59,867 nucleotides of DNA, taken from a virus. The first letter of the stretch is position 1; every line of letters begins with the position of its first letter. The notes beneath the pieces were generated by a model. The model ran no database searches, was not told the origin of the DNA, and saw only the letters and a program-made list of their open reading frames with translations. Location: IMG/VR virus record IMGVR_UViG_3300029267_004697, positions 1-59,867 of that record. One strand, written 5' to 3'. Shown in pieces: positions 2,730 to 50,238 of this stretch. A program made the translations under genes and the position numbers.

Positions 2730-3674
2730 ATGCTAACATATCCTAGTGTTCCTTACGAAACTTTTTTAAAGTATGCTATCTTTATTTATGGAGATAATAA
2801 AGAGGTTAACGATTTTTTAAGGGAAAGTTTCTTACCCCCGATTGAAGATGAGTTTATAGACGCTAGAAGAGAAGCTTTACTTAACACTACTAAAAAGAAA
2901 ACAATTAGGGAATCTATAAAGGGTTCTTACATCCCCCCTAAAAACAGGACCACTTTTAATCACTTACTAAAGTGGCTAGTGGAAACTGGCCTTATCTTCC
3001 CATTTATTTATTTTCACCCCCAGGTTCTTCGTAGATATAAAGGGATTGAAGTTAAGGTTCTCAGGGAAGTTTTCTTACTAGCACTTCACCCTATGCTCAG
3101 GAGAGTCCACAACTGTGCTGTCTTCTTGAGGGAGAGCAGGGAGTTCCAGAATTGGTTCCCAATGAGGTGTTCTAGTCCAGCCTTCGAGTGGTATAGGTAT
3201 ATCTTTTTTAATCCTGAAATGGTAGAGACTGAGGGTGATTGGATCTACTACTTTAGAAAACTAGATAAGTCTGAAGCTAAACTGTATGATGCAGCTAAAA
3301 GGAATAATATAAAGTTTTGTATCTGGCTCCTTGGAGGGATACCTCAGATTAGTTTGGAAGAGCTCCAGGAAAACTTACAGTCTATCAGTTACTGGGGAAC
3401 CCTGGAGAAAATGAGAACAGATTTTGTAGGTGGTGAGCCTGAAGATCGTGGTGATCCTGAAGCTAAGCGGTGGGCTAGAATCGGTATAGATACAATGAAA
3501 GCTTCTACTCCTAAAGCCTTACCCCCTCCTCATTTAGAGGATGAAGAATCATTTGAACAGGTTATTGACGCTGAAGAAATAAAGGATAGTGACATTCAGC
3601 AAGAAATACCGGTGTTCGAAGGTCCTCTAGAAGGAAGAAAGAAGAAAAACCAGGAGGAAGGGATACACCATTAA
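2730..3674 (+). CDS. Hypothetical protein upstream of the terminase
   Basis: A 314-residue protein of unknown family, Trp/Phe/Tyr-rich in the first 230 residues, then an acidic and proline-containing tail ending in a basic patch (GRKKKNQEEG). No good ribosome binding site precedes the ATG. Its position just before the large terminase gene is where a small terminase or a head-completion gene is often found, but no helix-turn-helix is evident, so the role stays open. Confidence 0.75.
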   Translation: MLTYPSVPYETFLKYAIFIYGDNKEVNDFLRESFLPPIEDEFIDARREALLNTTKKKTIRESIKGSYIPPKNRTTFNHLLKWLVETGLIFPFIYFHPQVLRRYKGIEVKVLREVFLLALHPMLRRVHNCAVFLRESREFQNWFPMRCSSPAFEWYRYIFFNPEMVETEGDWIYYFRKLDKSEAKLYDAAKRNNIKFCIWLLGGIPQISLEELQENLQSISYWGTLEKMRTDFVGGEPEDRGDPEAKRWARIGIDTMKASTPKALPPPHLEDEESFEQVIDAEEIKDSDIQQEIPVFEGPLEGRKKKNQEEGIHH

Positions 3675-3682
3675 CACCTCCT
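3652..3682 (+). promoter_or_regulatory. Possible hairpin masking a Shine-Dalgarno sequence before the terminase
   Basis: AGGAGG at 3652-3657 can pair with CCTCCT at 3677-3682, just before the terminase ATG at 3687. The start codon has no other purine-rich site in range. This may lower terminase translation. It could equally be chance. Confidence 0.3.
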
Positions 3683-3686
3683 TTTC

Positions 3687-5720
3687 ATGATTTCCAGAAG
3701 TCAGTTTGCTGAGAAGTTTCTTAAGCTGAGAGGAAAGCCATTCTCTCTAAAAGGATACGAATATTTACTTCCAGTCTATGAAGATAGAGTTAAGGGAAGA
3801 AGAATATTACTGAAGACAGCTCGGCAGATAGCAAAATGCTGCTCAGAAGATACCGAAGTAACGTTATCAAACGGAAACGTAGTTAAAATAAAAGATTTAA
3901 AGGCTGGTGATGGAGTTTGTTGCCTTAATAATTCTACACTAAAAGCAGAGGCGGGTAAGGTTTTAGAAATACATGAAAATGGTGTTCAAGAATGTTACAA
4001 AATCAAAACAAAATATTTAAGGAATGAATTAATTTGTACATTGAATCACCCACTAAAAACATTATATGGTTATAGGCTTTTAGCTCAGCTGAAACCAGGA
4101 GACTTTGTGGGAATTTCTAGGCGTTCACCCCACTCAAAGGGGTTAAAACTAACACTAGAATATAATTTAACAAAAAAGAAATTTAAGAATTATGTAGATT
4201 TTTTTAATGATTCATTTCTGACTAGTTTGCTCAATAGCGATATTCTGTGGGATCAGATAGAATCAATAGAACCAGTAGGTGAAAAGCAAACTTATAATCT
4301 AGAAACCTCCCACAAAAACTTTGTAGCTAATGGGGTTATTACACACAATTCACAGACTATCTGTAATGTTAGTCAAATTGACTGCTTTCAGATATCTAAT
4401 TTCGATAATCTATATATTACTTTCACACAGAAACAGATGCTAGCCTTTGCTAGGCAGAAGATAGACCCACTTCTAGCGGAGAGTCGAAAAATTAGGGATT
4501 ATTTCTTAGCTGGTCCTTATATTCGTGATAGCATCACAGATAAACGATACAGTAATAACTCCACTACATTCCTGCGTCACTGCTATTTAACGGCTGACTC
4601 TGTTCGTGGAATTAGTGCTGATCGTATTTGTGTAGACGAGTGCCAGCTTATACTTACTGATAACATTCCAATCATTGAGGAGTGTGTTTCCCATTCTAAC
4701 TATAAGTGGATGTTGTATGCTGGAACTCCAACCTCGGAAGATTCCAGCTTAGAGGATTTATGGGATAATTCTACTCAGAATGAATGGTTGCTTAAATGTC
4801 CTCACTGCGGGAATTTCAACTATCAAGATATAGATATTATTAAAGAAGAGGGTTTGCAGTGCAGAAAATGCAAACGGATCATGGATAGAGACCAGCTCAC
4901 AGGCCAATACTTTTGCTTTCAGCCTGATGCCCCGATTGTCAGCTATAGGTTCACTCAGCTTACAGTGCCCTGGATGACTCATGCTGAGATAATGTACAAG
5001 ATTAAGAATTATTCAACTCAGAAGTTCTATAACGAAGTTTTAGCTTTACCTTTTAATGTTTCTGAGAAGGCTTTAAGCAAAGACGACATTTTGAAGAATA
5101 TGACTAGTCACCCCAACACAGTTGAATTTGCTAAGAAATTTGCTCAGCTTCCATTGGTAGCGGGGATAGACTGGGGAGGGGGATCCGATAGTTACACTGT
5201 ACTTTCAGTCGGCTATCACCAACATGGAGTAACTAAGATTATCTATTCTAAGAAGTTTATAGGTGCGGAAGCTGACCCAGTTTCACAAATAGATATCTTA
5301 GCTGACATTTGTGTGGAGCTTAAGGTTAGACTAGTTTTAGCTGACTTTGGTATGGGACTGACGAGTAATCCTCTCCTAGCTCAGAAACTAGCTAAATATG
5401 GAATAGGATTATATCCTATTATGTACACCGCCCAGAAAGAAACGTTAAGCTGGCAACCTATAGCAGTTAGATACCAAGCTAACAAGACGGTTAGCTTAGG
5501 CAGGTTGTTCTCTGATATGAAACAAGGTGGCAAGATAGAGTTCCCTAAGTATGAACCTGAGCTGTATAAAGACTTTCTCAATGTTAGGACTCAAAAACGA
5601 TTGCTCAGCGGTTCTTCAGTGATATTCTACGACCACAGAAGAGACGAGCCAGATGACTTAGTGCAGTCTGTAAACTATGTTCATCTGGGTGCCCCCTTGA
5701 TCCACCCTTATTTTCAATAA
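3687..5720 (+). CDS. Terminase large subunit, interrupted by an intein
   Basis: The 677-residue product is the DNA-packaging motor: an ATPase that pumps DNA into the prohead and a nuclease that cuts the concatemer. Residues 51-221 are an intein; splicing would give a protein of about 506 residues. After splicing, TARQIAK joins SQT to rebuild the Walker A loop, with Walker B at ICVDECQ. A zinc-finger-like pair (CPHCG and CRKC) follows in the middle, and the C-terminal RNase H-like nuclease shows GIDWGGG and LADFG acidic motifs. The gene lies upstream of the protease-scaffold-capsid block, the usual packaging order. Confidence is high for terminase; the exact subfamily is not clear. Confidence 0.93.
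   Translation: MISRSQFAEKFLKLRGKPFSLKGYEYLLPVYEDRVKGRRILLKTARQIAKCCSEDTEVTLSNGNVVKIKDLKAGDGVCCLNNSTLKAEAGKVLEIHENGVQECYKIKTKYLRNELICTLNHPLKTLYGYRLLAQLKPGDFVGISRRSPHSKGLKLTLEYNLTKKKFKNYVDFFNDSFLTSLLNSDILWDQIESIEPVGEKQTYNLETSHKNFVANGVITHNSQTICNVSQIDCFQISNFDNLYITFTQKQMLAFARQKIDPLLAESRKIRDYFLAGPYIRDSITDKRYSNNSTTFLRHCYLTADSVRGISADRICVDECQLILTDNIPIIEECVSHSNYKWMLYAGTPTSEDSSLEDLWDNSTQNEWLLKCPHCGNFNYQDIDIIKEEGLQCRKCKRIMDRDQLTGQYFCFQPDAPIVSYRFTQLTVPWMTHAEIMYKIKNYSTQKFYNEVLALPFNVSEKALSKDDILKNMTSHPNTVEFAKKFAQLPLVAGIDWGGGSDSYTVLSVGYHQHGVTKIIYSKKFIGAEADPVSQIDILADICVELKVRLVLADFGMGLTSNPLLAQKLAKYGIGLYPIMYTAQKETLSWQPIAVRYQANKTVSLGRLFSDMKQGGKIEFPKYEPELYKDFLNVRTQKRLLSGSSVIFYDHRRDEPDDLVQSVNYVHLGAPLIHPYFQ
3837..4349 (+). 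other. Mini-intein in the terminase Walker A motif
   Basis: Residues 51-221 of the terminase reading frame form a 171-residue intein. It begins CCSEDTEV (block A, Cys1), has the block B T-x-x-H within CTLNHPLKT, and ends NFVANGVITHN before Ser, the usual His-Asn and +1 nucleophile. There is no LAGLIDADG or HNH endonuclease between the splicing blocks, so it is a mini-intein that cannot home by itself. The insertion falls between the catalytic Lys and the Ser/Thr of the ATPase P-loop, a residue the enzyme cannot do without. Confidence 0.93.
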
Positions 5721-7805: not shown

Positions 7806-9365
7806 ATGGATGGAATTAGAAAAACAATCTACTATGATATAGTAGATAACTATGGAATTCACCTAGAAATAGTTAAACCTAGAGAAGGCATAGTCAAAAT
7901 GGCTTCTGATATTTCAGACGAGTGTCTGAAACATATTAGCAAGCTGGAGAAAGCGGATACTGATATCACTTATGCCTTGACTAATGCTGTAGGAAGTGGT
8001 GAATACTGGGGATCAAACAAGAACGCCGACTACCTTATAGAAGGGGACTTAGCCGGTGGATCCCTAGACTTCGGCTACCAGACATTTCTAAAAGCTCATG
8101 TTTTTAGGGATCATCTAAACAAAGACCCGAAGTATAAAGTTGGGGATGTTCTCAAAGCATTCTGGAATCCTAGGATGCATAGAGTTGAGCTGCTAATCGG
8201 AATCTACAAACATAGAGCTCCAGAGATAGTGCAAAGACTAAATAACATGGAGACATCCAAGGAGCTGGTTGGTGTTAGTTTCGGACTCACAACTCCTTAT
8301 GAGCAATGTTCCTATTGCGGTAATGTTAACACCACTAGGTCAACTAGATGCTATCATTTAAAATATGAGTTAAACAAAGTTTACTCAGACGGAAGCAAAG
8401 TACAAGCACTAACTTTCAAACCCCTTTTCTATGACATCAGCTTCGTGTGGAACAGGGCTAACAGTGAAGCTCTGGTTCTAGTTAAATTAGCTAGTGTCGA
8501 GCAGAAAGAAGCTATTGTAGAAAAAGAAGTTGTATCACAAAACCCGTCTGTATTAGCTATCTATAAAGATCTAGCTAGAAAGGTTGTGGGCAAGATCGTT
8601 CAGATTGAACCTGATCTTAGCCCTGATGAAATAACAGTTTTAGCTAAGAAGCCGTTGAAAAAAGTGATGGGCTCGCTGACGGCTATGGGTATTATTCTAA
8701 AGCCAGATGAGTTTAAAGCTTTAGTTTCCAAGAAGAAAAATGAGGCTAGTGACATAGCTAAATTCTCTATGGAAGATCTGGATAATGACATTTTTGATTT
8801 AATGCTGCCTCGCTTGCACGACCGTTCTTACTACAGACCGTTTGTGCTTAGCAGAGCAATCGAAAACCAGGATAAACTAAAGAAAACTGCATCTGTAGAT
8901 CTTAATCAGGCAACCCCAGAATTATATAAAATTTATAGAGGACGAATAATCAAAGAGGCGAAATCTAAGAAAACATTTCCTTTATTAGCATTACTAATTG
9001 CTTTAGGAATAGGTGCGTATTACGGTAGGAAAACACTCAAGGAAGTTCCAGAACTAGGTAAATTCCCTCACTTTTTGGAGGCTGGTTCCATCAATCCTAT
9101 CAGCACTGCTGACATCCACAACAAAGCAATGGCAGGCATTGTAGTTCCATCAATACCAGTCAAGTTTAACGAAAGATACAAAGACTTGGTTGCTGGTGTT
9201 CCAGCTGCTTATGTACTATCTGCATACAAAGGTCTTGACTTTTCTGACAAAGACGTACAAAATTTAGCTAAGAATAGCATGGTTTCTTCTGTATATGAAA
9301 CAGAGGAGGCCGCAAAAACAGACGTGAGAATTATAGAGTCAATCTATAAGGAGGACACTAAATGA
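7806..9365 (+). CDS. Capsid maturation (prohead) protease with C-terminal extension
   Basis: The protein has 519 residues. The first 225 look like the head protease of large tailed phages: a conserved AHVFRDH (His103) followed by GVSFG (Ser158), then a Cys/His cluster CSYCG...RCYH typical of this subgroup and likely to bind zinc. Such proteases cut scaffold and internal proteins inside the prohead. The C-terminal half is unusual: it carries KIYRGRIIKEAK, close to the DRIYK tag, and then a membrane-like segment (LLALLIALGIGAYYGRK). The scaffold-like gene overlaps its stop by four bases. The catalytic assignment follows family knowledge and has not been aligned. Confidence 0.8.
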   Translation: MDGIRKTIYYDIVDNYGIHLEIVKPREGIVKMASDISDECLKHISKLEKADTDITYALTNAVGSGEYWGSNKNADYLIEGDLAGGSLDFGYQTFLKAHVFRDHLNKDPKYKVGDVLKAFWNPRMHRVELLIGIYKHRAPEIVQRLNNMETSKELVGVSFGLTTPYEQCSYCGNVNTTRSTRCYHLKYELNKVYSDGSKVQALTFKPLFYDISFVWNRANSEALVLVKLASVEQKEAIVEKEVVSQNPSVLAIYKDLARKVVGKIVQIEPDLSPDEITVLAKKPLKKVMGSLTAMGIILKPDEFKALVSKKKNEASDIAKFSMEDLDNDIFDLMLPRLHDRSYYRPFVLSRAIENQDKLKKTASVDLNQATPELYKIYRGRIIKEAKSKKTFPLLALLIALGIGAYYGRKTLKEVPELGKFPHFLEAGSINPISTADIHNKAMAGIVVPSIPVKFNERYKDLVAGVPAAYVLSAYKGLDFSDKDVQNLAKNSMVSSVYETEEAAKTDVRIIESIYKEDTK

Positions 9366-10090
9366 AATTTGAAGAGCTATTTGCAAAACTAGAAGAAGAG
9401 GATGTTCCTACTCCTTCTGACGACGACCTTAACAAGATGGCTCACCAGCTTCTGACTGAAAGCGTAGCTGATAAAGATGCGCCTGATAATTCAGGTATGG
9501 TGAAAAAGATTGCTTCAGCAGTCCTGGAAGAGCTAAAAAGAGCGGGTGTCGTGAAAAGCGCTACGGATATTAATGCAGGAATTCCTTCCAATGAAAATTC
9601 CCCTAATCCGCACCTTGAGAACCCGGTTGACGCACCCCCAGCGGTGGCACAGCCAACTAAGGCCCCTCAAACTGGTCTAGCTGATGCTATGCAGGATCCT
9701 ACGCCAGCTAACGTGGCAGCTTCTTCAGCTGACCCTGCTCGGGCTGCAGCTACTTCTGCGGAAGTAACTATTGAAGACCCTGAAGAGGCCGAGCTGATTC
9801 AAAAGGAACTGGAAGTCGTAACTGATACGGCCTCCAGGCTGTTGCAGGATGGAATCACAGAAGATCCCGTGGCCGCTTTGGCCGCTGCTTCTCTAGCAGC
9901 AGTTGAGGATTCTTTGGACACGGACGAAAGTGAAGATGAAGCTGCAACTGATGCTATTGAAGAAACACTGGAAGCCCTTGTAAACAATGCCGCAGAAGAA
10001 GAAAAACTCAGTGAAATCATTGAATCTTATGGCAGAGTCCATGCACGTGATTTAGTGAAAGAATACCTGAGAAACAATCTATTAGACTAA
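9362..10090 (+). CDS. Acidic scaffold-like protein
   Basis: A 242-residue, Ala/Glu/Asp-rich, low-complexity protein with Pro-rich middle and helical C-terminus. Its start overlaps the protease stop (ATGA), and AAGGAGG lies at the right distance. Composition and place between protease and capsid genes fit a prohead scaffolding or core protein. The segment LNKMAHQLLTES near residue 24 resembles the amphipathic tags of the nearby proteins. Confidence 0.75.
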   Translation: MKFEELFAKLEEEDVPTPSDDDLNKMAHQLLTESVADKDAPDNSGMVKKIASAVLEELKRAGVVKSATDINAGIPSNENSPNPHLENPVDAPPAVAQPTKAPQTGLADAMQDPTPANVAASSADPARAAATSAEVTIEDPEEAELIQKELEVVTDTASRLLQDGITEDPVAALAAASLAAVEDSLDTDESEDEAATDAIEETLEALVNNAAEEEKLSEIIESYGRVHARDLVKEYLRNNLLD

Positions 10091-14627: not shown

Positions 14628-14701
14628 TGGAGCTGGGGAGAATCGAACTCCCAACCTCCGGGTTGCAGGCCCAGCGCTCACCCAAATTGAGCTACAGCCC
14701 C
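14628..14701 (-). tRNA. tRNA-Ala (anticodon TGC)
   Basis: Full cloverleaf on the minus strand: acceptor GGGGCTG with CAGCTCC, D stem GCTC/GAGC, anticodon stem CTGGG/CCCGG, T arm GGGAG-TTCGATT-CTCCC. G3 faces T70, the main alanine identity pair. The anticodon loop is CCTGCAA, so position 33 is C rather than the near-universal T. CCA is not encoded. Confidence 0.88.
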
Positions 14702-14702
14702 G

Positions 14703-14816
14703 TTAGTTCCGGTTTCTTTTCTTCCAGCAGCTATACTCCTTTGTACTAGCAAACGCAAGGGCAAAGATAAATAGCACTATAATCCCTACTAGTATAGCTG
14801 CGATTTTAGATATCAT
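14703..14816 (-). CDS. Very small membrane protein
   Basis: A 37-residue frame starting MISKIAAILVGIIVLFIFAL and ending in a basic tail (CWKKRNRN). One membrane span with a basic end. The ribosome binding site (AAGGTGA) is weak and somewhat distant. It fills the space between the tRNA-Ala gene and the next gene. Confidence 0.5.
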   Translation of the reverse strand: MISKIAAILVGIIVLFIFALAFASTKEYSCWKKRNRN

Positions 14817-27769: not shown

Positions 27770-27979
27770 ATGATCAAATTGTACCTCGGTTTCTTAGAGG
27801 GTCAGGACGGTTATGGGTACCCGCACATAATTGTGTATGATCATAAAGCTGATGAGTCATACAACTATGTCGGGAAAACGTTACCATTTGCAGATGTATT
27901 CAGGGCGATGCTCGCTAGGGAAGAAGAAGACATGAGAGGATTCCTAGCAAGACTAATCGAGGAGGAAAGGAAAAGATGA
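27770..27979 (+). CDS. Small hypothetical protein
   Basis: A 69-residue protein starting MIKLYLGFLEGQDG with a helical, charged C-terminus. Its last codons overlap the KH gene by four bases, which suggests translational coupling. Confidence 0.7.
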   Translation: MIKLYLGFLEGQDGYGYPHIIVYDHKADESYNYVGKTLPFADVFRAMLAREEEDMRGFLARLIEEERKR

Positions 27980-28239
27980 AAGAATGGTTAACAAACACGG
28001 TTAAGCAGTTAGTAGGTGAAGAAAATGCTAAGCTAGTGGTAGTTGAAGAGTTAGAAGGGAAGGAAATGTCAGTTATATTTGTCAGGGGACCTAGGGAAGT
28101 CCTAGGAATCGTTATTGGCAAAGGAGGCAGAACAGCTGGAGCCATCAGAACTATTCTTAATATTGCCTCTAGGCAGAGCGGTAAAAGATATATGCTAAAT
28201 ATTAGCCATAACACGGATACTAACGTTAAGGAAGAGTAA
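27976..28239 (+). CDS. KhpA-like KH-domain RNA-binding protein
   Basis: An 87-residue single-KH protein. IVIGKGGRTAGAIRTIL holds the GxxG RNA-binding loop (GKGG, residues 48-51), and the end KRYMLNI forms the last strand; size and layout match bacterial KhpA. KhpA proteins bind many small RNAs and transcripts. The stop codon lies six bases before the first of six structured RNA elements, on the same operon, so a shared function is likely but unproven. Confidence 0.88.
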   Translation: MKEWLTNTVKQLVGEENAKLVVVEELEGKEMSVIFVRGPREVLGIVIGKGGRTAGAIRTILNIASRQSGKRYMLNISHNTDTNVKEE

Positions 28240-28244
28240 TCCAC

Positions 28245-28409
28245 CAAAGCTTGCAGAAAGCTAGTTTATCCCTAGCAGATCTAAGAAAGTAGAAGGTGTA
28301 ATGATGCTTCTTTTCTGGGACCTGCCCTGGCGGCTAACGGGCCAACCGGCTCCGCGCCGCCGCCAGGCGCTGAGCCCAGAAAACGCACATTAATCAGTTA
28401 GAAGCTTTG
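28245..28409 (+). ncRNA. RNA array, element 1
   Basis: Closed by CAAAGCTT and AAGCTTTG. Inside are GCA, a small hairpin (GCTAG...CTAGC), an A-rich AGA strand, then a large GC-rich arm (TTTTCTGGG with CCCAGAAAA, CTGGCGGC with GCCGCCAG) and TTAG before the closing strand. Confidence 0.75.
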
Positions 28410-28445
28410 CAACTTAGCGTTTAGTTGGTTATATTCTAATTATTT

Positions 28446-28651
28446 ATCAAAGCTTGCAATAAGCTTACGAATAGTAAGCAGAAATAAGAAAAACCAACAT
28501 ATAACTGATGAGCAAACCGTTCAAACCAGGTTAGACTTCACCTCGGGAACTCAGTCGGAGATGTCCTTAAGAACATCTCCAGACGGGAGTTCCTCGTGAA
28601 GAACCACCTGGTGAACGCCTTTGCCCACAGCTATTAGTAAGAAGCTTTGAT
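28446..28651 (+). ncRNA. RNA array, element 2
   Basis: Closed by ATCAAAGCTT and AAGCTTTGAT. Small hairpin GCTTAC...GTAAGC, then CAGAAATAAG, then a long arm with nested stems GCAAA/TTTGC, CTTCAC/GTGAAG and GGAGATGT/ACATCTCC. Confidence 0.8.
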
Positions 28652-28673
28652 TCACAATGTAATTTATAATTAC

Positions 28674-28824
28674 TATAAAAGCTTGCGTAATCCAGTTCAG
28701 AAATGGACAGAAGTAAATAAAACTCGAGTAAGAAGACCATAGTTATATACGCCAAAGGACAGTTTTACAACGTCCAACGGCGTATAAACTAATGTTCTTC
28801 TTAGTTCAGATAGAAGCTTTTATA
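28674..28824 (+). ncRNA. RNA array, element 3
   Basis: Closed by an 11-pair stem TATAAAAGCTT and AAGCTTTTATA. Small hairpin TCCA...TGGA, then CAGAAGTAAA, then TAAGAAGA/TCTTCTTA, TATACGCC/GGCGTATA and GGAC/GTCC stacked in one arm; CAGATAG precedes the closing strand. Confidence 0.82.
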
Positions 28825-28834
28825 GGGTAGATAA

Positions 28835-29053
28835 AATAAAGCTTGCAAAAAGCCAGAAATACTGGCAGAAAAGAAACAAATAGGCAAGAGGTGCCTAAAC
28901 ACTAGATGACCTGACGACGTCAGCTGGCGAGGCTCCCTACTCAGATTTTTAGTCCAGGGACAAATCCTCTGGACATAAAAACAGAGACTAGAGCCTACGC
29001 CCTGCTGACCCGCAGCTCATCTGAGCCACCTCAACCCAGATAGAAGCTTTATT
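28835..29053 (+). ncRNA. RNA array, element 4
   Basis: Closed by AATAAAGCTT and AAGCTTTATT. Small hairpin GCCAG...CTGGC, then AGAAAAGAAAC, a GGCA/TGCC hairpin, AGATGA/TCATCT and an inner GTCCAG/CTGGAC hairpin; CAGATAG precedes the closing strand. The longest element. Confidence 0.8.
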
Positions 29054-29067
29054 TCTAAAGACATCAC

Positions 29068-29198
29068 TTCATAGCTTGCATTTACTTAGATTACTAAGTG
29101 AAAAGAAAGTACTACACGATAGCAGGAAGGCAGGCAAGGAGAGACACTGTTCACCTCCCTTACCTGCCTTCCAGATATGCCTAGATAGAAGCTATGAA
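29068..29198 (+). ncRNA. RNA array, element 5
   Basis: Closed by TTCATAGCTT and AAGCTATGAA; the base changes relative to elements 1-4 keep every pair. Small hairpin ACTTAG...CTAAGT, then GAAAAGAAA, then GGAAGGCAGG/CCTGCCTTCC; TAGATAG precedes the closing strand. The shortest element. Confidence 0.82.
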
Positions 29199-29206
29199 TC
29201 ACTGTT

Positions 29207-29346
29207 TAAATGGTTTGCTTTTTCCTAGAAAACTAGGGGGTGTAAAACAAACAGCTACACTTGAAATGATGAAGCCCAACCCTTGCACCGACGCCGGTTA
29301 CAGGGTTGGGCTACAATTCCATTTCAAAACAGATAGAAACCATTTA
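29207..29346 (+). ncRNA. RNA array, element 6
   Basis: Closed by TAAATGGTTT and AAACCATTTA, again changed in sequence yet fully paired. Small hairpin CCTAG...CTAGG, then TTGAAATG/CATTTCAA and GCCCAACCC/GGGTTGGGC in one arm; CAGATAG precedes the closing strand. Confidence 0.82.
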
Positions 29347-29347
29347 G

Positions 29348-29375
29348 GAGGGTAGTACATATACCCTCTTTTTTT
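29348..29375 (+). terminator. Terminator of the KH/RNA-array operon
   Basis: GAGGGTA pairs with TACCCTC, followed by seven T, two bases after element 6. Confidence 0.9.
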
Positions 29376-29408
29376 GACAAATTTTACACTTTATTGTAAT
29401 CTTTTAAT

Positions 29409-31586: not shown

Positions 31587-32696
31587 TTGTTAAGCTTCGA
31601 TGAAACTTCGTTAGAGAGTTACTTCAAAGAATTGCACGACTTACCTTTATTATCACCAGAAGAAGAAAAAGAGGTATCATCTAGTTTAGATGAACTCAAA
31701 ACCGATGCTTTGTTTCTACTATCTCAAGATGATTTGCTCAGAAGGATGTTGTTTATGCCTAGAGAGCTAGGTGGGGTCTTTTCTGGGCATGATACAATTG
31801 AAGATATATTTGAGATCTCTCAGGCTGAAGAGTCCAGGGAGTATAAGGTGACTAAAGTTAGAAGGTCACTTTATCGCTTGCTTAAGATAGAGCCTGGAAA
31901 TGGTGTAAGGGCTTTATCTAAGCTTCCGTTTAGGTGGGAAGTTGTAGAAAGTCTGCTCCAGAAATACTGCAGTTACGGGCCAAGGCCCCAGTTAGCTCAG
32001 CTTCTGTACAACAAGATACTGGAAACTAGGGATAAATTTATAACCTCTAACCTAAGACTAGTCATTGAAATGATCAAGAGGCTAGGGATTAATCCTAATG
32101 GAGCAATCCCTTGGGAAGACTTGATTCAAGAGGGGAATATCGGTTTGATGAAAGCCGTCTCTAAGTATGATCCTAGTCGAGGATTTAGGTTCTCTACATA
32201 TGCTTGCTGGTGGATAACACAATCTGTTATAAGGGCTATAGCTGACAAAGGACGGTTAATTAGGCTTCCAGTTCACACTCAAAGCAAGGAGCTACGAGAT
32301 AGTAATAAGATGCCTGTTCAGATACTAATGCCACTAGACCGACCGGTTTACAGTGATGAGGATGGAGAAATGTGTCTAGCTGATGTACTGCCTCAAAAGT
32401 CAAACCAGGATGATATCACTTGCCTAGCAGAAATAAATGAGACATTGCTCAACTGCTTAACTAGATTTTCTCCTAGAGAGGAGAAAATAATCAGGATGTA
32501 CTATGGTTTAGATGGTAAGCTATATACACTAGAGCAGATCGGAGTTATCTTTGGTGTAACCAGAGAAAGGATAAGGCAAATAAGGGATAGACTACTTCAA
32601 TTGATGAGGTCCAACGAAGATCTAGATAATCTTAAGACAGATATAAGTGATGATCTGGATCCATTGGAATCAATGTTTACTTACATTCCAGAATAA
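31587..32696 (+). CDS. Sigma-70 family RNA polymerase sigma factor
   Basis: The 369-residue protein starts at TTG behind AAAGGAG. Region 1.2 is SLESYFKELHDLPLLSPEEE; region 2 has DLIQEGNIGLMKAVSKYDPS and FSTYACWWITQSVIRAI; region 4 ends TLEQIGVIFGVTRERIRQIR. This is a group 1/2-like primary-type sigma and not an ECF sigma. Region 1.1 is missing and about 100 residues lie between 1.2 and 2. It could direct host RNA polymerase to the TGGTATAAG elements of this phage; that link is inference. Confidence 0.93.
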   Translation: MLSFDETSLESYFKELHDLPLLSPEEEKEVSSSLDELKTDALFLLSQDDLLRRMLFMPRELGGVFSGHDTIEDIFEISQAEESREYKVTKVRRSLYRLLKIEPGNGVRALSKLPFRWEVVESLLQKYCSYGPRPQLAQLLYNKILETRDKFITSNLRLVIEMIKRLGINPNGAIPWEDLIQEGNIGLMKAVSKYDPSRGFRFSTYACWWITQSVIRAIADKGRLIRLPVHTQSKELRDSNKMPVQILMPLDRPVYSDEDGEMCLADVLPQKSNQDDITCLAEINETLLNCLTRFSPREEKIIRMYYGLDGKLYTLEQIGVIFGVTRERIRQIRDRLLQLMRSNEDLDNLKTDISDDLDPLESMFTYIPE

Positions 32697-32718
32697 ATCA
32701 AAAAGGAAGGGAGGGGAA

Positions 32719-33528
32719 ATGTGTAAATTTTTCAGTTGTGACTCAGATGGTGATGGGAATTTACTATATTTTGATTGGGAGTTGAGAAAAAAGATATTGT
32801 CTGGGGAGATAAAGCAGTACGAACCAGACAGCCATACCTCAATAGCTCACTGGTTTGGGTTCGAGGGTGAGGAAGAGGATGTACTAAATAAATACGAATA
32901 CAATCCCTTGACGAAGAAGTTTGTAATAGATCAGCTTAATGATACTATGGATGATTCTATCATAGTAAAAGAGAAGCTGGATAATTTTGATTGGAAAACA
33001 ATTGTAGAGCCGTTAATCATTAAGCCAATTATTCATCCATTCGAGATGGATGCACCCGAAATTACTCCAGAAATAGTTGATTTAGTAAAAAAGTGGGCTT
33101 CGGTCAGGGATTCGATCAGGTATTCGGTCTGGCATTCGGTTGGGGCTTCGGTCAAGGCTTCGACCAGGGATTCGGTCGGGCATTCGGTCAAGGCTTCGAT
33201 CAGGAATTCGGTCGGGGATTCGGTATGGGCTTCGGCCTGGGATTCGGTCTGGCATTCGGTTTGGAATTCGGTCGGGGAGTCGGTCTGGTATTCGGTCGGG
33301 GTTCCGGCCCGGAAGTCGATCAGGCATTCGGTTTGGAATTCGGTCGGGGATTCGACCGGGAATTCGATCGGGGCTTACTTTTCATCTTTCTTTGATATTG
33401 ATTACAAACACGATCTGTCTCCTGCAATCAAATTGTGGGAAATGGGATTAGTTCCGTCCTACGACGGGGAAGTATGGAGGCTGCACGGTAAGCCAAACGG
33501 TAAGGTATTATGGGAAGGGACAATCTAA
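32719..33528 (+). CDS. SV-repeat protein (paralogue 1)
   Basis: A 269-residue protein starting MCKFFSCDSDG behind GGGAGGGG; an earlier ATG in the same frame lies inside the sigma gene and is not used. After a conserved N-domain, residues about 128-216 are tandem four-residue units of the type x-S-V-x (WDSVWHSVWNSVGESV), coded by near-identical 12-base repeats. A conserved C-terminus (LHGKPNGKVLWEG) follows. The regular Ser/Val spacing suggests a solenoid. A close relative lies at 37566. Function unknown. Confidence 0.8.
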   Translation: MCKFFSCDSDGDGNLLYFDWELRKKILSGEIKQYEPDSHTSIAHWFGFEGEEEDVLNKYEYNPLTKKFVIDQLNDTMDDSIIVKEKLDNFDWKTIVEPLIIKPIIHPFEMDAPEITPEIVDLVKKWASVRDSIRYSVWHSVGASVKASTRDSVGHSVKASIRNSVGDSVWASAWDSVWHSVWNSVGESVWYSVGVPARKSIRHSVWNSVGDSTGNSIGAYFSSFFDIDYKHDLSPAIKLWEMGLVPSYDGEVWRLHGKPNGKVLWEGTI

Positions 33529-33549: not shown

Positions 33550-34104
33550 ATGGAAAGCATGGATTTGAAAACAGAGTTGGTCAATGGGATTATTTCTAAT
33601 GACATCAAAAATGATGTATTACAAAGTAACCTAGAGATAGACCCAGACTTCGTCTATAAACTAGCTTTCTATGTCAGGTCTGTTTACAAAGACATTGACT
33701 CAGCAATTATGCTCCTGGCTTACTGCGCTCATAATGAAAAAGCTAAAACAAAACTGAGACGCTGGATGAGTAAAATCATTCAAAGCCCAGAAGAGGTGGT
33801 AGATTTAATGTCTGTTTACTTAGACACTTTTGGAAAACCAATACCAAATTCTCTCAAGAGAGGTTTAGCTGACGTGCTGTCAAACTTTTGGCATTTCCCC
33901 CATTATTCTAATAATGGAGTGAGTTACAAGACTGTACTAAAGCTAATCCACCCGAAACCGCTCAACGAAACAAGAGCGGTAACTTACAAGTGTATATTGG
34001 ATAACAAGCTCGACAAATCATTCAAGTCAAAGAAGAAATCTAGGCCAATACCCAGTGGTGTAAACGTTCCTAAACTAGTTAGTATAGTTAATGACTATCT
34101 GTGA
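33550..34104 (+). CDS. Short TROVE (Ro60-like) RNA-binding protein
   Basis: The protein has 184 residues. FVYKLAFYVRSVYKDIDSA, SLKRGLADVLSNF and VLKLIHPKP (HPKP at 134-137) match the HEAT-repeat ring of TROVE proteins, which bind Y RNAs and misfolded RNAs. Full Ro60 has about 530 residues with a vWA domain; this one holds only part of the TROVE module and no vWA. A promoter element and a structured small RNA follow directly, as in bacterial ro-Y RNA loci. Confidence 0.8.
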   Translation: MESMDLKTELVNGIISNDIKNDVLQSNLEIDPDFVYKLAFYVRSVYKDIDSAIMLLAYCAHNEKAKTKLRRWMSKIIQSPEEVVDLMSVYLDTFGKPIPNSLKRGLADVLSNFWHFPHYSNNGVSYKTVLKLIHPKPLNETRAVTYKCILDNKLDKSFKSKKKSRPIPSGVNVPKLVSIVNDYL

Positions 34105-34964: not shown

Positions 34965-35606
34965 ATGGAAATAAGAAATAGATTTACCAATGAAATTATC
35001 GTAGAAGGAAAAGATTTGCAAGATTGTATTAAGAAAAGAAAAGACTTGAGGGGTGCATTCTTGGGGGGTACATTCTTGATGGATGCATACTTGAGGGACG
35101 CAAACTTGAGGGATGCATACTTGAGGGGTGCAAACTTGGGGGGCGCAGACTTGAGGGGCTCAGACTTGAGGGGTGCATTCTTGCTGGACGCAGACTTGAG
35201 GGGTGCATTCTTGAGGGGTGCATTCTTGAGGGATGCATACTTGAGGGGCGCAAACTTGGGGGGCGCAGACTTGAGGGGCTCAGACTTGAGGGGTACATTC
35301 TTGAGGGATGCATACTTGAGGGGTGCAAACTTGGGGGGCGCAGACTTGAGGGGCTCAGACTTGAGGGGTACATTCTTGAGGGACGCCTACTTAAGGGACG
35401 CAAACTTGGGGGGCTCAGACTTGGGGGACGCATACTTGAGGGGCGCAGATTTGAGGGGCTCAGACTTGAGGGGTGCAAACTTGAGGGACGCAGACTTGAG
35501 GGACGCAAACTTGGGGGGCTCAGACTTGAGGGGACGCAGACTTGAGGGGTGCATTCTTGAGGGGTGTGTACTTGAGGGGTGCAAACTTGGGGGGGCGCAG
35601 ACTTGA
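34965..35606 (+). CDS. Pentapeptide-repeat protein, frameshifted near the end
   Basis: Residues 25-190 are uninterrupted A(D/N)LRG-type pentapeptides, coded by near-identical 15-base units; such proteins fold as a right-handed four-sided beta-helix. At about 35530 a run has one extra G, so the frame shifts and the last 24 residues (RRLEGCILEG...) are out of frame. The original gene continued for about 400 bases (next entry). AGGAGGG precedes the ATG. Confidence 0.82.
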   Translation: MEIRNRFTNEIIVEGKDLQDCIKKRKDLRGAFLGGTFLMDAYLRDANLRDAYLRGANLGGADLRGSDLRGAFLLDADLRGAFLRGAFLRDAYLRGANLGGADLRGSDLRGTFLRDAYLRGANLGGADLRGSDLRGTFLRDAYLRDANLGGSDLGDAYLRGADLRGSDLRGANLRDADLRDANLGGSDLRGRRLEGCILEGCVLEGCKLGGAQT

Positions 35607-37559: not shown

Positions 37560-37565
37560 ATGAAA

Positions 37566-38363
37566 ATGTGTAAATTTTTCAGCTGTAATTCAGATGGTGG
37601 TGGAGAGCTGTTCTATTTTAATTGGGAGCTTCGCAAGAAGATGCTGTCTGGTGAGATAAAAAATTACGAACCGGACTCCCACACGTCCATAGCTGACTAC
37701 TTCGGTTACAAAGGGGAAAAGGAAGACTCGATGAACAAATACGAATACAACCCCCTGACTGGTAAGTTTGTGATTGATCAACTAAACACCACTGACGATA
37801 ATAGGATTGTTCAAAAGCAACTAGATAATTTTGATTGGAAAACAATTGTAGAGCCGTTAATCATTAAGCCAATTATTCATCCATTCGAGATGGATGCACC
37901 CGAAATTACTCCAGAAATAGTTGATTTAGTAAAAAAGTGGGCTTCGGTCAGGGATTCGACCAGGAATTCGGCCAAGGCTTCGGTCAGGGATTCGACCAGG
38001 AATTCGGCCTGGGCTTCGGTTTGGGATTCGGTCTGGAATTCGGTCGGGGATTCGGTCGGGGATTCGGTCTGGCATTCGATCAGGGATTCGGTCGGGGATT
38101 CGGTCTGGCATTCGATCAGGGTCTCTGCCTGGGCTTCGGTCTGGAATGCGGTTTGGGATTCGGTCTGGCATTCGGTTTGGGATTCGGTCTGGTATTCGGT
38201 CAGGGCTTACTTTTCATCTTTCTTTGATATTGATTACGGATATGATTTCTCCCCGGTGGTTAGATTGTGGGAGATAGGATTGGTTTCATCTTTTGATGGG
38301 AAGCTATGGAGATTGCATGGTAAGCCAAACGGTAAGGTATTATGGGAAGGAAACTTAACTTAG
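37566..38363 (+). CDS. SV-repeat protein (paralogue 2)
   Basis: A 265-residue relative of the protein at 32719. I place the start at 37566, which is correctly spaced from AAAGGAGG. N-terminal domains are diverged, but the DNA from about 37832 to the start of the repeats is identical in both genes, and the repeat arrays differ in unit order and number. That pattern indicates recent gene conversion. Confidence 0.8.
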   Translation: MCKFFSCNSDGGGELFYFNWELRKKMLSGEIKNYEPDSHTSIADYFGYKGEKEDSMNKYEYNPLTGKFVIDQLNTTDDNRIVQKQLDNFDWKTIVEPLIIKPIIHPFEMDAPEITPEIVDLVKKWASVRDSTRNSAKASVRDSTRNSAWASVWDSVWNSVGDSVGDSVWHSIRDSVGDSVWHSIRVSAWASVWNAVWDSVWHSVWDSVWYSVRAYFSSFFDIDYGYDFSPVVRLWEIGLVSSFDGKLWRLHGKPNGKVLWEGNLT

Positions 38364-42941: not shown

Positions 42942-43196
42942 TTGATATTGCGAAGGAGCGTATATCTTGATAGCCTTATTAGAAATAAACATGGACATAG
43001 CCTGATTTGGGAGTTGGGGTTAGTGGAGCTAAGCTGCCGTCGTCTGATGCTCGGGGAGACTCCACGTCGGTACTTTGGGCACACCCAAGACTATGAAAAA
43101 TACTCAAGATTACAGTCGCTTGCAGAAGATAAGCTGAAAGAGTGCATGCCTATTGAAGAGGAGAAGAAGCTATTTCCTAAAAGGAGAGTCAAATGA
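42942..43196 (+). CDS. Small LFP-motif protein, start uncertain
   Basis: A frame ending EEEKKLFPKRRVK, with at best a TTG start. A strong AGGAGG and ATG at 42887 lead into another frame (MVRTYYNPLSRFSYQ) that stops at 42970. The two halves together look like one gene broken by a frameshift near 42950. The end overlaps the next start by four bases. Confidence 0.45.
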   Translation: MILRRSVYLDSLIRNKHGHSLIWELGLVELSCRRLMLGETPRRYFGHTQDYEKYSRLQSLAEDKLKECMPIEEEKKLFPKRRVK

Positions 43197-49278: not shown

Positions 49279-50238
49279 TTAACACCTATTTCCCATTATC
49301 ACCCCTTTGCCCTCACACACTGGGCAATCTTTAAGGGGTTCATTTATTCCTATTATGAGTTTTTCTAGAAATTGGTCTATGTTGTCCTGAAGGTCTTGTT
49401 GATCTTTCCCCTCAAAGGGTTTAATTGGGGTATAGCCCCGATAGTTTTCCGGGGAGTAGGTCATTTCGTAAATCTTAAGCTGTCGGTATCGTCGCGTCTT
49501 AGTTTCGGTTCTTGGTTTCTTCCTTTGCCTACCGCTACCCAATCTCTCGACTTCGTATTCCTCTGGTTTTGCTAGTTCTATTTTCTTTACAACCTCAAAA
49601 CAGAAATTATAATCGGAGGTAATTTCCGCATATTGAGGATTGATATTACTCTTAATATATTGTCTGACAATATCATACGATTGCTTTGAACTAAGCCTAG
49701 AAGGTCGGGAGGGTAAAATCAGCGATGGAAATAATATTTGATCAAGCAATTGGTGGTCTATGTCTTTTTCGGTGATTGTATTTGCTCTTTGTTCAAGCAT
49801 GATCGGATAGGCAAAACCGTTAAACTCCTGTACATTGTCAAATTCGACCATATCAACAATCTGAAAATCTATTTTCGCGGTTTTTTTCGGGGGTATATCA
49901 CTCTTAAGTTCATATAATGACCGAAGATGGGTAAACTCGGGCAACCAATCCCCACACTCATCTGTAACCTCAACACTTAGAGATTTTGGGATTTTATCCG
50001 AGGCAAGAGAGACATCCTTCAATTCATATCTAAAATTGGTAGAAGGAGGTTGCACTTCACGGGAAATTGATTTTGGTTCCTCTTTAACAAAAACCCAATC
50101 TTTATGAAAGGTAGGCATCGGACTATGACCGTCAAAAGAAAATTTCAAGAGTGGAGATTTAGACGAATATTGACTATCTGAATATTCAGACAAATAAATA
50201 CCCCTTGGCGTTTTAATCTCAATTAATTTTAATAGCAT
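49279..50238 (-). CDS. Hypothetical protein with C-terminal Cys pair
   Basis: A 319-residue protein starting MLLKLIEIKTPRG behind AAAGGGAG. A basic stretch (GRQRKKPRTETKTRR) lies around 245, and the end (DCPVCEGKGVIMGNRC) resembles half of a DnaJ-type zinc finger. The long polar middle is unlike other genes here. Function unknown. Confidence 0.7.
   Translation of the reverse strand: MLLKLIEIKTPRGIYLSEYSDSQYSSKSPLLKFSFDGHSPMPTFHKDWVFVKEEPKSISREVQPPSTNFRYELKDVSLASDKIPKSLSVEVTDECGDWLPEFTHLRSLYELKSDIPPKKTAKIDFQIVDMVEFDNVQEFNGFAYPIMLEQRANTITEKDIDHQLLDQILFPSLILPSRPSRLSSKQSYDIVRQYIKSNINPQYAEITSDYNFCFEVVKKIELAKPEEYEVERLGSGRQRKKPRTETKTRRYRQLKIYEMTYSPENYRGYTPIKPFEGKDQQDLQDNIDQFLEKLIIGINEPLKDCPVCEGKGVIMGNRC

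Follow-up and report, generated by a model that had tools for sequence, protein, structure and literature searches.

Known retrons are defence units of bacteria in which one RNA is provided for each reverse transcriptase (RT). The retron RNA is enclosed by two inverted repeats, a1 and a2, and DNA synthesis takes place from the 2'-OH of an adjoining conserved guanosine (PMC8989520). It consists of a part with short hairpins, msr, and a long part that is reverse transcribed, msd (PMC8989520; PMC8867640), and msr, msd and the RT gene are present in one transcript (PMC8867640). The locus presented here shares this anatomy with the bacterial retrons Ec86/Eco1 and St85/Sen2 and departs from them in its arrangement. 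It is located in an uncultured tailed phage with a terminase and a head protein, of which a stretch of 59,867 nucleotides (IMG/VR record IMGVR_UViG_3300029267_004697; hereafter the window) was analysed. We consider it fairly probable that the locus comprises six tandem msr-msd-like RNAs of the retron type, which would be served in trans by a single RT encoded 35 kb away.

The array consists of six tandem elements of 131-221 nt each on the plus strand, at positions 28245-29348, separated by spacers of 36, 21, 8, 13, and 6 nt. The closing stems of elements 1 to 6 measure 8, 10, 12, 11, 10, and 11 bp. Element 1 (28245-28409) begins with an a1-like strand (28245-28252), the candidate branch G at 28253 and a small hairpin (28260-28276), and continues with the variable arm, a G at 28401 and the a2-like strand (28402-28409). 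The same order is seen in element 2 (28446-28651; a1 28446-28455, G 28456, hairpin 28463-28479, variable arm, a2 28642-28651) and in element 3 (28673-28825; a1 28673-28684, G 28685, hairpin at about 28692-28708, variable arm, a2 28814-28825). Element 4 (28834-29054) has its a1 at 28834-28844, G 28845 and the small hairpin at 28852-28866, after which an extra hairpin (28880-28897) precedes the variable arm and a2 (29044-29054). In the shortest one, element 5 (29068-29198), a1 is located at 29068-29077, followed by G 29078, the hairpin at 29081-29102, the variable arm and a2 (29189-29198). Element 6 (29205-29348) carries a1 at 29205-29216, G 29217 and a hairpin at 29223-29238, and then a second hairpin, the variable arm and a2 (29337-29348). 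All six elements thus have a GC directly 3' of the 5' stem strand, a hairpin of 5-9 bp at 3-10 nt from that strand, and then an A-rich linker and a long variable arm, with a G immediately before the 3' strand. The presence in every element of a G after a1, a G before a2, and an msr-like hairpin supports their likeness to retron RNAs. The sequence around the candidate branch point is UUGC, while many retrons carry (U)UAG. The G+C content of the arms is 51-64 % in five of the six elements, compared with 40.6 % for the window. No open reading frame of at least 80 amino acids was found in 28248-29408.

The array had been noticed in a sequence-only reading of the window, and its central claims held when they were followed up. 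Six consecutive closed elements were recovered using a structural descriptor, the common junction (a hairpin after UUGC, the variable arm, and the closing strand) was present in the folds of all six, and the 1.1 kb was free of open reading frames of at least 80 amino acids. Of the sizes given there (131-219 bases, spaced 8-36 bases), the minimum of 131 nt and the longest spacer of 36 nt stand, while the longest element is 221 nt and the shortest spacer 6 nt; the range of 8-11 bp for the closing stems has to be extended to 12 bp at its upper end. The arms are unrelated in sequence, as had been stated, but they are not perfectly paired: they are mostly paired, with bulges and internal loops, and elements 4 and 6 contain extra hairpins.

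Matched changes in the two strands of the closing stems, also claimed in that reading, were borne out by a covariation test over ten closing-stem positions in the six elements against 500 shuffles. Ungapped cores were used since a MAFFT alignment of the full elements misaligns elements 5 and 6. Of the 60 stem cells, 58 (96.7 %) are paired, as opposed to 76 % in the shuffles, and pairing drops to 28-57 % when the partner strand is slid by one to three columns. Two-sided compensatory changes occur in six of the ten pairs, an example being AUGGUUU/AAACCAU in element 6 versus AAAGCUU/AAGCUUU. The covariation score was 0.547 (0.175 in shuffles), a value reached by none of the 500 shuffles. Each element folds as a closing stem with a small hairpin and a large arm, with z-scores, calculated for each element singly, of -5.0 to -9.9 relative to dinucleotide shuffles.

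The descriptor required a stem of at least 8 bp, a GC adjoining the 5' strand on its 3' side, and a hairpin within 9 nt. It matched six times in the 1.1-kb array against a background of 0.08 per kb-strand, and further clusters of at least three matches were absent from approximately 1.5 Mb of viral DNA searched on both strands (approximately 3.1 Mb-strands). A cluster obtained in a later scan, in L229, was discarded, as it lies within a repeat-rich coding gene and is not an array of elements.

Two more IMG/VR contigs overlap the window at 99.99-100 % identity and belong to the same virus, by which the known sequence is extended to approximately 96 kb. One of these, G001, is 99.99-100 % identical to window positions 13-44658 and carries both an identical array, starting at G001 45194 on the plus strand, and a gene for a retron-type RT of 309 amino acids on the minus strand (G001 9104-10033). 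The RT gene is outside the window and was thus beyond the sequence on which the earlier reading had been based. Short indels separate two assemblies of the virus at window positions 42967-43021 and 14695-14727; the array is identical in both. Further genes of the window code for a large terminase subunit that includes an intein splicing domain (PF14890; 3687-5720, plus strand) and, at 34965-35606, 32647-33528, and 37560-38363, for a pentapeptide-repeat protein containing a long internal repeat and for two paralogues that are internally repetitive.

The assignment of the enzyme to the retron RTs was made by profile, sequence, and fold. In PADLOC, its best family is RT_II-A (121.7 bits) and all 25 best families are retron families; among the NCBIfam profiles, retron_St85 scores 109 bits, compared with 56 for group II and 36 for Drt3a. 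A phmmer search of the PDB sequences ranks the retron Ec86 RT first. In a Foldseek comparison of its AlphaFold model (pLDDT 86.8), retron RTs took all of the first 17 places, and group II, DRT, and DGR enzymes came after them. The catalytic YADD motif is intact, while other motifs are partly lost: NAxxH is not recognisable, VTG is changed to VMG, and QG to TG. In a tree, the protein forms a long branch, and its placement is uncertain.

No RNA gene adjoins the RT gene, as only 30 nt separate it from a divergently oriented gene for a fused RNA polymerase and only 13 nt from the following gene of its operon. Another RNA candidate close to the RT gene (L016 3479-3741) was rejected because it is located inside a thioredoxin gene, and apart from this one the descriptor gave no further match in the vicinity. 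In the approximately 96 kb known of the virus, no multi-element candidate other than the six-element array is present. PADLOC recognised no retron effector among ten open reading frames of the window, nor was one recognised among the operon neighbours of the RT gene. Directly behind the RT gene, in the same orientation, lies a PRTRC-like cassette (G001/L016 5700-9090, minus strand) with a ThiF protein (50 bits) and a weakly matching JAB protein, both below the cut-off; it possibly links ubiquitin-like chemistry to the RT. The fused beta-beta' RNA polymerase of 2026 amino acids is encoded at G001/L016 10063-16143 on the plus strand, its nearest named records being the Vibrio phages D69, D181, and D148 at approximately 30 % identity, and a sigma-70-type factor is encoded in the same phage at window positions 31587-32696.

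The locus thus has in common with bacterial retrons an RT that groups with the retron clade by profile and fold, closing inverted repeats of the a1/a2 type, a G beside a1, a short msr-like hairpin, and a long variable msd-like arm. It differs from them in having six RNAs instead of one, an RT that is encoded outside the RNA transcript at a distance of 35 kb and has degenerate NAxxH and VTG motifs, and no recognised effector gene, and in residing in the genome of a phage that itself encodes an RNA polymerase of the multisubunit type. The pairing of the RT with the array is suggested by their co-occurrence in one virus together with the anatomy of the elements; for this reason, we describe the array, with the same moderate confidence, as a template array that works like a retron yet falls outside the canonical retrons.

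The descriptor was also run on approximately 65 RT loci from bacterial genomes, phages, and plasmids. Just upstream of independent retron RTs, stems of at least 9 bp occurred at 0.157 per kb versus 0.038 per kb elsewhere (five cases), and stems of at least 11 bp at 0.094 versus 0.006 per kb (three cases), with clear cases in L056, L072, L122, and L132. A G after a1 combined with a G before a2 was present in 10 of 33 retron loci, in 30 of 479 background stems, and in all six array elements; the benchmark counts are low, and the array represents a single evolutionary case. The lengths of the elements are within the range of the RNAs found beside bacterial retron RTs. A search of Rfam, also proposed in the sequence-only reading, gave no match to the elements at either gathering or relaxed thresholds, the msr family (RF00170) included. 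When 20 retron-RT loci from bacteria and phages were searched in the same way as a control, none was detected and no msr match was obtained, so that the silence of Rfam on the array is uninformative. The view that the elements are a modular RNA family absent from Rfam can be kept, but they need not be left without a known class, since their anatomy is that of retron msr-msd RNA.

Other systems resemble the locus in part. Two large-phage records in IMG/VR, L132 and L128, also combine a retron-type RT with a candidate msr-msd-like RNA, but in these a single candidate is located immediately upstream, in the gap before the RT gene, and the records hold no array (in L132, the RNA candidate is at approximately 3476-3720 and the RT at 3986; in L128, the RT is at 4004). 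Both are apparently ordinary cis phage retrons. Diversity-generating retroelements likewise combine a phage RT with a noncoding RNA template; the RT described here is, however, outside the viral clade taken as DGR-like, its best folds are retron RTs, and no template/variable repeat of the RT region was found elsewhere in the contigs. The ToxI repeats of type III toxin-antitoxin systems, which are short, near-identical pseudoknots beside a nuclease gene, are tandem structured RNA repeats as well, whereas the elements of the array are 131-221 nt long, have unrelated arms, and adjoin no nuclease gene.

The array follows a gene for a KhpA/KhpB-like KH-domain RNA-binding protein of 87 amino acids (27976-28239, plus strand; PF13083, E 2.7e-13). 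As its stop codon is only 5 nt upstream of element 1 and an intrinsic terminator with a 9-pair stem and a T run (29346-29376, plus strand) is located directly behind element 6, the KH gene and the array probably form one transcript. This arrangement, together with the finding that a KH homologue was absent from 15 other phage RT records searched, favours an explanation in which the elements are phage RNAs that act independently of the RT and are bound by the KH protein, their arms being small RNAs, sponges, or defence decoys made of RNA, and in which the RT of the genome has no connection with the array. We regard this as unlikely: it leaves unexplained the retron-like junction, with its G after a1, G before a2, and msr-like hairpin, and also the retention by the virus of a retron-type RT that has no RNA of its own. 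No KhpA-type KH domain is known to select such a three-way junction. Long, nearly perfect hairpins that are richer in G+C and lie on a terminator-ended transcript might also have a structural or processing role that involves neither reverse transcription nor a specific protein partner, for instance as an array of RNase III substrates, a transcript stabiliser, or a packaging or antitermination signal. Plain hairpins would need neither the conserved three-way junction nor the covarying closing stems that all six elements have, and this explanation is less probable still.

A protein partner of another kind is offered by a TROVE (Ro60)-domain open reading frame of 184 amino acids at 33550-34104 (plus strand), 4.2 kb downstream of the array. 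Ro60/Y RNA systems would, like this phage, combine a TROVE protein with structured RNAs, and Ro-like proteins, some with a full-length TROVE domain, occur in other phages. The domain is incomplete here, covering profile positions 57-187 of 442 without the vWA part (a phage homologue has 461 amino acids), no match to Y RNA or YrlA was obtained even at a relaxed threshold, and the elements have no tRNA-like domain, making Y-RNA-like partners of this protein a very improbable identity for the array. Chance or an assembly artefact is barely conceivable. The array is known from one virus only, but it is identical in contig G001, other parts of which differ from the window by short indels, and both the density of descriptor matches and the covariation test contradict chance.

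Relatives of the array were sought in several ways. None of the other phage records examined contains such an array, including the complete or nearly complete records of phages that encode a retron-type RT, and a second virus holding both the RT and the array was not found. A first IMG/VR scan with DNA patterns of the element end-to-start junctions returned, besides G001, coding or chance matches, which were set aside; in the two junction scans together, no locus other than G001 had an array of elements by the descriptor. No similar DNA was present among the INPHARED phages, and no close relatives of the KH protein were found. Searching by the fused RNA polymerase gave the same virus only in IMG/VR and distant Vibrio and Salmonella phages elsewhere. 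The open-access literature yielded nothing relevant on phage retron arrays or on multiple msr-msd RNAs per RT.

If the array is a set of templates of the retron type, the phage RT would bind each of the six elements, and priming would occur from the 2'-OH of the G after a1. The RT would then begin next to a2, on its inner side, and copy the variable arm, so that the cDNAs we infer for elements 3, 4, and 6 are predicted to begin with TATCTG, that of element 5 with TATCTA, that of element 1 with TAACTG, and that of element 2 with TTACTA. Up to six distinct RNA-linked DNA hairpins could be the outcome. The co-transcribed KH protein might, more tentatively, bind or process the RNAs of the array.

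What such products would do is a matter of speculation. As no effector gene was recognised, they are proposed to serve the phage itself, perhaps as a small decoy library or as antitoxin-like baits against host defence. A counter-defence role, with DNA or RNA-DNA hairpins acting as decoys, is plausible but speculative; it is made plausible by the Gad1-like anti-Gabija protein that the virus encodes at window positions 49279-50238 on the minus strand (Pfam PF25705, E 2.4e-79). A multiplex retron device, in which one RT acting in trans copies six different msd arms carried on one polycistronic RNA and the DNA hairpins are directed against host defences, decoying either DNA-sensing defence proteins or the effectors of host retrons, is a tentative extension to which we give slightly less than even chances. 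The uses suggested in the sequence-only reading, decoys or scaffolds for six different targets, are possible for the products, while that of packaged RNAs is unsupported. A role of the arms as donors for self-editing is argued against by the finding that none has a significant sequence match elsewhere in the virus.

With six template-like RNAs and an RT that lacks a template of its own, the virus may make six different DNA hairpins using one enzyme. If this is true, retron templates are open to multiplexing and exchange, and phages themselves use retron chemistry. A natural array of six templates with an RT acting in trans would then also offer a ready-made multiplex supply of intracellular DNA.
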